Below are positions 61,343 to 63,098 of a stretch of 64,000 bases of DNA, one piece after another. Position 1 is the stretch's first letter, and each line of letters opens with the position of its first letter. Origin of the DNA: Bremia lactucae (taxonomy: Eukaryota; Oomycota; Peronosporomycetes; Peronosporales; Peronosporaceae); contig NC_090614.1 of assembly GCF_004359215.1 (NCBI RefSeq), positions 1,897,283 to 1,961,282 on the forward strand, given 5' to 3'. The translations under genes were made by a program, and so were the position numbers. Below the pieces are notes generated by a model, which saw only the letters and a program-made list of their open reading frames with translations, had not been told where the DNA came from and searched no databases.

Positions 61343-61458
61343 TCACCCCTCCCTTAAACGACAATCACTCTGACTGTCATTGGACGGAGTGGTCGCTATG
61401 TGACCACTTAATTTTTAAAACGATGTTGATTGGTCAGATCCATCATTTTAAATTCCAT
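61343..61458 (+). promoter_or_regulatory. Conserved leader upstream of the GyG aORF
   Basis: The segment CAATCACTCTGACTGTCATT (61361-61380) and GATGTTGATTGGTCAGA (61422-61438) are found in the same order ahead of the aORF start in GyG2 (46785 leftward on the minus strand). Conservation of a non-pol, non-LTR leader suits a promoter or 5' UTR of the antisense gene, but part of it must also serve the polypurine tract. Confidence 0.4.
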
Positions 61459-63098
61459 CGCATGAAGAATCAACTCATGCGGAGTGACGATAGTGCTGCG
61501 CCTTCGGCTGTGGTTCGTGCAGCCGCGGGTGACGCACTGTTATCTCTTGCGGCTGACTGAACGTCTGCCGTAGTGCCTTCCACTCACACAACACTAGATG
61601 TTGCGAGTGCGCGTGGTTAATCACCACGTGAATACGACCCCTCTTTGAAGGTCGACTACGAATGCGAATCGGATGAAATGGCCGACTCGGGGAGAATAAA
61701 ACAGTCGCCTGATATACGTCAGGCGGCTGACTATGAGCCTTCGAATGAGAGGGCTCATTCTGATAGACGAGTAAATAGTCTTTTTGGATCCGACGATAAG
61801 GATGACCCCTCATCGCCCGTACGATTTTCCATATGGTCACCTGCACGTGTTTCTGTGCAAGGTGATGACGATGGCGTAAGCCATCGTAAGAGAGGTTCTT
61901 GTAGTACCCCTACTTCAGTGGGTACAGCTTAGGGGAGTGAAGACAAAAAAATGTCTCAACGCGCCCCTGAAAAGAAGCCATGGCTTTTGCCAGAACGGCT
62001 TATCGATAGCTTGTCTGGAGAAACTTCTCCTCACAATAAATATCCCTTATTTTTTGCGACAAAGCTACGTGGCCTTGATCCCAGCGCGAAGAACTTTTGC
62101 GCTGAGGAAGATTTTTATCTCGATGCTTTTCTTAAGCATCGATGGTTTAGTGGCAATAATAAGCGAGATAAAGTCTCGCTTATGCAAGACTGGAGTGCAT
62201 TCATTCGCAATGTCAAAGACATGTGACGCGAAGCCTGGCTACAAAAACTTAACGCGATTCGCGTTAAGTTTAAGAAACGAACTCCAACCGGTGCAAAGTA
62301 TAAATTGCATCAGTTGTCACGTGAGGCAGAGCTACCATGCCTCACGTGGGTGATCCCTGTCCGTGTTGTGTTGACAACACGAAACGAGAAATAGGGGTTG
62401 TCTATACCCTTTCTTCGCCCTGGGGAAGGGCTCGCATCTCTTTCGAGATGCGCGATGCGTTGACGTTATGCAATCGATTTTCATGCGCGCCAGGGGCGCG
62501 TGTTTTCCGATGGACCTTCTGAACCATCGAATGTGGAACGAGGCTCCCAGCTGTCACGTGAAGGTGAATAACCGTGCCAGCGATCAAGATAACACGTTCG
62601 CTGCCCCTTCACATCACGGTGATTCTGGATACGTTCCACAAGGAAACGCTAACCACCGTGGGAATCCACCAAAGGTTGTGGTGGAGGAGGGAAAATTAGA
62701 TCCGAACTTTATGTCGGATCAAATGTCGAGGATTGACAAAATCGATCACTTCCTCCATGATTTGGAGGAGGGACTTGAGCACGAGCGCAGCAAGCGTCGC
62801 TCGTTGGAGCAGACGGTGCAAACTTTCCATATCGAGCGGTTGGAAGACCGTTCGACGAGTGCGTACTCCATGTTGGAGTACGAACGGATTTTATCACGCT
62901 GTTCGCGATGAGCTGTCGTCAGCTCATCGCGGTTTCGAGGATATTCGGAACCGGCATGAGAAAGTTCAGGTTTAACATGAGAATCTGGTTCGCGATCACA
63001 AGAATCGTTTAGGGGATCTTGAAAAGGATGGTCAAATTTGTCCTCGGAAGAAGCCGCGTACTGATGGTACGGGCGGAGCCAACCAACGTAAAACGTAG
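61450..63098 (+). pseudogene. GyG3 aORF: antisense accessory gene, most complete copy
   Basis: About 540 residues if frameshifts are ignored. N-terminus MKNQLMRSDDSAAPSAVVRA with AAGDALLSLAAD (61471-61558), an acidic region with YDPSLKVDYECESDEMADS (about 61635-61690) and RVNSLFGSDDKDDPSSPVRF (61770-61830). Central block at 61951-62226: PWLLPERLIDSLSG, EEDFYLDAFLKHRWFSGNNK and MQDWSAFIRNVKDM, continuing WLQKLNAIRVKFKKRTPTGA (62238-62300). After a frameshift, the coiled coil HFLHDLEEGLEHERSKRRSL, EQTVQTFHIERLEDRS and FYHAVRDELSSAHRGFEDI, then PRKKPRTDG to the stop near 63098. The central block lies beyond the end of pol. No known family recognised. Confidence 0.68.

Follow-up and report, generated by a model that had tools for sequence, protein, structure and literature searches.

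What does the strand opposite pol encode at the 3' end of a Ty3/gypsy retrotransposon, and what might the element gain from it? The question is raised by a window of 64,000 nucleotides (the whole stretch of DNA analysed here) from the downy mildew Bremia lactucae (contig NC_090614.1, positions 1,897,283 to 1,961,282), at the right end of which such an element runs on the minus strand. Beside its 3' long terminal repeat (LTR) begins a frame on the opposite strand, and an earlier description made from the letters alone, here called the sequence-only reading, took it to encode a real accessory protein. We report that this antisense frame is a real protein gene that was under purifying selection in the active ancestors of the present copies. 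It reaches deep into pol, and inside the overlap the constraint changes strand: by non-silent counts, pol is kept at its chromodomain, and the antisense frame is kept opposite the pol linker.

The remnant of pol ends at 62440, as mapped from a sister copy (L012), and the inner edge of the 3' LTR, read from the sequence, lies at about 61342, where it adjoins a purine-rich tract. The antisense gene has its ATG at 61477, between these two points, and its stop codon at 63096-63098; the boundaries given in the sequence-only reading, 61343 and 63098, were right, the first being the inner LTR edge and the second the last base of the stop. That reading placed the frame between pol and the 3' LTR and let it converge on pol. 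The first half of this description holds for the start of the gene, but the second says too little, because the gene enters pol: its last 659 bases (about 0.66 kb, or about 219 codons) lie opposite pol, from the pol end across chromodomain and linker as far as the integrase motif at 63090. The part outside pol makes up about 59% of the gene, and pol and the LTR are about 1.1 kb apart. The features of this copy, which belongs to the element family designated A, are as follows.

61343..61356, minus strand: tract before the 3' LTR, read from the sequence, which we take to be of polypurine type.
61443..61449, plus strand: initiator-like TCATTTT, 34 bases before the ATG, a speculative candidate for the start of the antisense transcript.
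61477..63098, plus strand: antisense accessory gene of family A, from ATG to stop, broken in this copy (profile and frame comparison).
61621..61929, plus strand: acidic N-terminal part, the best preserved frame piece (profile match, E 4e-16).
61933..62391, plus strand: helical core domain with a Cys/Trp/Asp cluster, in the pieces 61933-62223 and 62227-62391 (profile, E 8e-52 and 8e-25).
62464..63095, plus strand: antisense C-terminal part opposite pol, a disordered stretch followed by a coiled coil and a basic tail (profile, model and variant counts).
62440..63399, minus strand: 3' end of pol, with the integrase C-terminal SH3-like domain, a motif at 63090 presumably of the GPY/F type, a linker and a chromodomain remnant (from 62648).

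Within the antisense C-terminal part, the disordered stretch opposes the chromodomain, and the coiled coil and basic tail oppose the pol linker. The window copy (L001) is damaged: aligned to P0001, a 559-aa public protein related to it, the frame is spread over three reading frames and carries 7 stops. The C-terminus of pol carries the Pfam family Chromo (PF00385) with E values of 6e-10 and 2e-14 in two family A copies (L012 and L015) and 1e-12 in a copy of another family, G (L058). On this pol C-terminal chromodomain, of which the window copy keeps a remnant, the host element is assigned to the chromovirus type of Ty3/gypsy.

The genome searched comprises 115.9 Mb in 220 contigs. A search with the antisense region gave 49 matches from the 40 scored of 3,254 candidates, and the true number is larger; in the published 115 Mb assembly, 58.6% of the contig sequence is annotated as Gypsy, and these elements are described as recently expanded (PMC6570648). 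The copies compared below are the best 30 of the 40 scored. All 30 match the antisense gene, but the region itself was the query, so copies that lack the gene could not have appeared. Relative to P0001, each copy carries 0 to 8 stops. Outside pol, in codon-aligned columns of the 30 copies, 45 of 8,842 antisense codons are stops; the other five frames hold 193, 972, 301, 364 and 312. Within the overlap, there are 35 stops in 7,126 antisense codons, 72 in 7,129 codons of pol, and 132-484 in the remaining frames. In L002, L012 and L015, pol is open through the chromodomain to its end and the antisense genes carry 1-3 stops, so the two seem to decay independently.

The evidence for selection uses the fact that copies die after insertion: variants private to one copy should be random, and variants common to several copies should reflect living ancestors. 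Outside pol, variants shared by at least three copies fall on antisense codon positions 1/2/3 as 17/17/49, and private variants as 184/197/199. The integrase end of pol, a positive control, gave 4/2/17 for shared variants counted in pol codons (16 of 19 rows), and the LTR end, a negative control, gave 15/12/20 (28 of 30 rows). The odds of a non-silent change in shared relative to private variants were 0.55, 0.30 and 0.15 for variants found in at least 2, 3 and 5 copies, with L023 as the reference, and were similar with three other reference copies. (The variants are related by descent, and all P values given here are guides.) In other words, shared variants are mostly silent and private ones random, which places the selection in active ancestors. 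The sequence-only reading had proposed purifying selection in this frame as a check, and it is found here in the 30 family A copies outside pol. Weaker evidence comes from the core compared between families A and D, with pN 0.26-0.50 and pS 0.66-0.95, values that are mostly saturated and come from alignments picked by protein similarity. The mirror frame (minus strand, phase 2) was considered as a gene and rejected, since it holds 312 stops and no copy has fewer than 7. Shared non-silent changes outside pol are scarce in this frame too (P 0.001 and 0.021), as its wobble sites fall on those of the antisense frame.

For the region in which both strands are read, the overlap was split at the border between chromodomain and linker, with the same reference and the same thresholds of 2, 3 and 5 copies. 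In the linker half, the odds ratios are 0.71, 0.45 and 0.19 for the antisense frame and 0.74, 1.63 and 4.37 for pol, and shared variants fall on antisense codon positions as 18/5/30. The antisense constraint there is significant at threshold 3 (P 0.0095-0.025) and threshold 5 (P 0.0009-0.0017, one-sided), but not at threshold 2 (P 0.096-0.21). In the chromodomain half, pol has odds ratios of 0.47, 0.45 and 0.23 and the antisense frame 0.79, 0.60 and 0.68. Over 12 settings, the non-silent test for pol gave P 0.0016-0.075, and the antisense odds ratio ranged from 0.49 to 0.79 with P < 0.05 in one setting; the constraint on pol in this half rests on these non-silent counts. Codon positions by themselves give no third-position excess there (shared variants 13/22/18 by pol position and 13/18/22 by antisense position, P 0.32), a flatness that two overlapping constraints might produce, and the private variants depart slightly from an even spread (P 0.02). 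A single pair of copies from families A and D likewise has pol constrained in the chromodomain half (differences per codon position 0.28/0.20/0.49 for pol and 0.23/0.49/0.18 for the antisense frame). It is indecisive in the linker half (antisense 0.49/0.38/0.45, pol 0.49/0.40/0.42), so the antisense constraint opposite the linker rests on the 30 family A copies. The predicted structure agrees with this division between the strands: residues 349-416, opposite the chromodomain, have a predicted local distance difference test score (pLDDT) below 50 in all but one case, and residues 429-536, opposite the linker, are modelled as a single long, confident helix.

The sequence-only reading described the product as an accessory protein with an acidic, Ala-rich N-terminal part, a coiled coil and a basic end, and this description is borne out by the charges of 14 homologues and by the AlphaFold model. 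The N-terminal part is acidic and disordered, with a net charge of -7 to -16 in all 14 and an Ala content of 9-20%. The core, of about 190 aa, is all helical and carries a net charge of +4 to +15 in the 14 homologues; modelled alone (P0001), it reaches a pLDDT of 83 and a predicted template modelling score (pTM) of 0.78. Across 15 diverse sequences, 23 core columns are invariant; one His and three Cys among them might coordinate a metal, zinc being a guess, and in the 14-row alignment two of these Cys fall just short of invariance. The coiled coil is the AlphaFold helix at residues 429-536, with ten-residue means of at least 90 from 431 to 540. The basic tail (for example, RKKPRTDG) has a net charge of +3 to +5 in 13 of the 14, the remaining homologue having no tail.

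Family and fold searches gave no significant relative for the antisense protein. No bZIP family appeared up to E 1 for P0001, P0016, P0068, P0065 and P0007. PF04195, a domain of plant antisense proteins to which we return below, was not found in P0001 (5 families up to E 10) or in the other four (up to E 1), and was absent among the best 25 of 54 families listed for the remaining members of the alignment. One member, P0007 from Hyaloperonospora arabidopsidis, bears the UniRef name ‘Core-binding (CB) domain-containing protein’, as in the core-binding domain of tyrosine recombinases. For this name, there was no Pfam family up to E 1 in P0007, and the fold searches with the P0001 core had no significant match; the name may stem from an accidental profile hit, but it could also point to a helical fold of DNA-binding type.

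Relatives of the protein are numerous. Three protein searches gave 139, 166 and 205 matches at E up to 0.001 (120 listed of each), and the named sources among the matches listed are Peronospora matthiolae, P. effusa and H. arabidopsidis, all of them downy mildews. The relatives in P. matthiolae, P. effusa and Hyaloperonospora are about 460-590 aa long, and 13 public homologues are 36-55% identical to P0001 in one alignment, in which P0007 lacks its C-terminal part. Two clusters of 529 aa, named for P. matthiolae and annotated ‘uncharacterized protein’, stand for 1,335 and 524 sequences, and these members are very probably this element gene, which matters for annotation. Among seven diverse members, the mean pairwise identity is 0.55 in the core and 0.67 in the tail (measurable in 10 of 21 pairs), 0.33 in the N-terminal part and coil, and 0.46 in the stretch opposite the chromodomain, a value that exceeds the N-terminal part and coil because, in our reading, pol holds this stretch.

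If the gene also opposes the chromodomain in these species, it should be possible to back-translate the homologous proteins in a way that allows a chromodomain in the frame of pol. A 22-residue chromodomain stretch around the SWEP motif fits the frame of pol in 12 of 12 proteins, with 0 of 300 shuffles of each as good; the other two frames give no fit, since at least 25 of 300 shuffles do as well there. The 12 share descent and hence are not independent; five come from named other species (P0007, P0011, P0016, P0140 and P0142), and P0001 may come from the species of the window itself. A second chromodomain stretch fits eight of the 12 at 0 of 300, is weak in P0065 (7 of 300) and P0141 (2 of 300), and fails in the P. 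effusa proteins P0140 (239 of 300) and P0142 (47 of 300). For the integrase motif, located at the gene's edge, none of the 12 gives a fit at the expected end; it fits a wrong place in P0011 and P0016 (0 and 1 of 300), and short stretches can thus fit accidentally. Taken together, the antisense gene very probably opposes the chromodomain in other downy mildews too.

What could such a protein do? The explanation that we prefer is a nuclear, dimeric, DNA-binding regulator acting on its own element, and we put its probability, the identity of the gene as an accessory gene included, at roughly one half. Transcription of the gene would start at a separate promoter next to the 3' LTR, for which maize Grande gene23 offers the best analogy. 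A candidate start is the TCATTTT given above, which 23 of the 30 copies carry at 1576-1602 of the oriented locus; the initiator consensus applied here is presumed, and in most copies a TCACTCT-type site some 78 bases farther upstream matches this loose pattern as well. The product may dimerise through its long coiled coil and enter the nucleus by means of its basic tail. There the positively charged helical core might bind DNA or chromatin, and the acidic N-terminal part would adjust the transcription, or the silencing, of the element.

Several observations weigh against this picture. The antisense gene is damaged in all 30 fetched copies; in L023, the sole stop-free copy, part of the coil is out of frame and the end is lost. 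The model of the whole protein is weak (mean pLDDT 62.7, pTM 0.38). The core had no significant match in the PDB or BFVD in the fold search, so the proposed DNA binding rests on charge and analogy. Moreover, a nuclear role would also suit a cofactor of integration or import.

Such a cofactor, structural or acting after entry, would help the particle to enter the nucleus, dock on chromatin or integrate, acting with the chromodomain of integrase that the opposite strand encodes. The long coiled coil, the basic tail and the position of the gene beside the integrase end would all fit, and the function of the plant counterparts is left open in a review (PMC7264820). An antisense gene, however, cannot be expressed from the genomic RNA and needs a transcript of its own, which would suit a regulator better, and we regard the cofactor as a serious but rather improbable candidate. 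A protein that counters silencing of the element by host chromatin would also have the nuclear type of composition seen here. VANC proteins counter the silencing of plant VANDAL transposons in this manner. The abundance and recent expansion of the elements (PMC6570648) would agree with such a factor, but there is no significant domain match, and we consider it unlikely.

The two other explanations deny the protein its role. In one, convergent transcripts overlapping by 0.66 kb would form double-stranded RNA that limits the element, and the frame would be a by-product. The layout allows this, but the codon-position pattern, the openness of the frame and the conservation of amino acids largely refute an RNA-only reading, which we hold to be very improbable; a role of the RNA besides that of the protein is possible. 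In the other, the frame is open by chance or as a shadow of the pol reading on the complementary strand. The antisense frame does show little constraint of its own in the chromodomain half, but selection is seen in the roughly 59% of the gene that pol does not cover, and opposite the linker it is the antisense frame, not pol, that is constrained (thresholds 3 and 5). Openness, codon positions and non-silent counts led us to reject this explanation for family A, where it is refuted and overall hardly credible; for family G, with five copies compared, it is still possible.

The antisense gene has several known parallels. HBZ of human T-cell leukaemia virus type 1 (HTLV-1) is an antisense gene expressed from the side of the 3' LTR, with an acidic N-terminal part and a C-terminal part of coiled-coil type, and it overlaps sense genes. 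The sequence-only reading had drawn this comparison, which survives as one of layout: no bZIP family was found in the five members searched, the basic part of the oomycete protein follows the coil, and homology is not claimed. An HTLV antisense promoter in the 3' LTR is mentioned in PMC7264820. The nearest known kind, also rightly named beforehand, is the antisense open reading frames (aORFs) of the plant Tat lineage. In Retand elements, these encode the TRP28 domain (PF04195), a suspected DNA binder, and some match SMC-type families; Retand is a non-chromovirus lineage with 2.9-6.6 kb between pol and LTR (PMC11963269). In contrast, PF04195 was not found in the oomycete protein, pol here carries a chromodomain, and the antisense gene extends into pol, with about 1.1 kb separating pol from the LTR. 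Antisense frames between pol and the 3' LTR are likewise described for Grande gene23, RIRE2 and PvRetro13 (aORF-3R), and the gene23 peptide of maize is reported to be nuclear and to be transcribed from a promoter upstream of gene23 (PMC7264820). Position and orientation are shared with these plant elements, and the likeness is one of layout. Like the aORF-3R class, the oomycete gene is antisense to gag-pol and starts between pol and the 3' LTR, but it ends inside pol; the word ‘overlap’ occurs 0 times in the main text of PMC7264820. Boty of the fungus Botrytis cinerea carries an additional antisense gene, brtn (PMC7264820, PMC8365987), and also represents a gypsy element of a filamentous plant pathogen, likened here by description. 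Among oomycetes, Chronos and Archon are Ty3/gypsy elements, and Chronos has, like the present elements, a chromodomain at the 3' end of pol (PMC5348765).

In the main texts of PMC5348765 on oomycete elements and PMC6570648 on Bremia, 0 occurrences of the word antisense were counted. The literature matches listed, drawn mostly from outside the subscription journals, included no description of an antisense gene in retrotransposons of oomycetes, and no report of this protein family, its oomycete host or a deep overlap with pol. By this comparison, the kind of gene is already known from plants (aORF-3R, Retand TRP28) and a fungus (Boty brtn), and the oomycete protein family and the deep overlap appear to be new. 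Antisense accessory genes have been reported in plants and one fungal lineage, and a further family, apparently unrelated to plant TRP28 and under clear selection in oomycetes, raises the question of convergence, as well as the question of what an element gains from a protein made from its back strand alone. As a natural test case of double coding, the overlap lets constraint be measured on each strand separately, and the many copies make testing direct.

The sequence-only reading counted such frames in ten copies of three families. Frames of families A, D and G were indeed found; the count of ten was not reproduced, and the family G protein has no detectable homology to that of A and D. The further copies in the window are the following.

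27852..28568, minus strand: C-terminal part of the antisense gene, second family A copy (profile).
45766..46565, minus strand: C-terminal part of the antisense gene, third family A copy (profile).
52272..53493, plus strand: antisense gene of family D, homologous and decayed (profile).
33031..33216, minus strand: fragment, start of the antisense core (profile).
4136..5351, plus strand: family G antisense frame in three frame pieces (same place relative to pol and chromodomain).
28562..29371, plus strand: second family G copy of the antisense frame.

The profile search of the window also found the A/D protein at 61621-63095 (plus strand), in the copy discussed above. Family D (52272-53493 in the window; copies L051-L055) encodes a protein homologous to that of family A, and inspection by eye gives a chromodomain-like peptide on the opposite strand in L052, L053 and L055. 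In family G (the window copies and L056-L058), 8 of the 1,873 codons in the antisense frame are stops, and the other frames of the five copies hold 59-146; the coil-like end of the antisense frame lies opposite the pol linker, and the pol of L058 contains the Chromo domain. The shared variants of these five copies (7/5/13 by codon position) are too few to prove selection. Homology between the G and A/D proteins was not detected with hidden Markov models (best E 0.33) or with hhalign (P 0.86 and 0.38; probability 0.04% and 0.16%, from alignments of 4 and 3 rows). We tentatively suggest, with more doubt than confidence, that an antisense gene was gained at the same spot at least twice in downy-mildew chromoviruses, once in A/D and once in the unrelated G, each time partly from the back strand of pol and with the strands taking turns (chromodomain and coiled coil). 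If this is true, a nuclear protein made antisense and matched to the integrase end would be a general requirement for the success of these elements.

Some minor observations concern the rest of the window. A weak profile match to the start of the core at 17082-17321 (plus strand; E 0.0007 and 0.0016 with two profiles) is a possible fragment of another copy. At 36146-36700 (minus strand) and 12997 (plus strand), an acidic motif, DPSL(I/S)VDYN(E/D)S, resembles DPSLEVDYECESD of the antisense protein; the surrounding stretches are ridden with stops and are perhaps the N-terminal part of a further antisense family. The motif at 36146-36700 sits inside an identical young element at 33500-38400. This stretch of 4.9 kb shows full-length identity of 100% in 19 of 20 fetched copies, the remaining one being identical from 33608 on, and 35000-36900 is 100% identical in all 40 scored candidates, that of the window included. 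Such identity reflects either a very recent burst of one element or copying during assembly.
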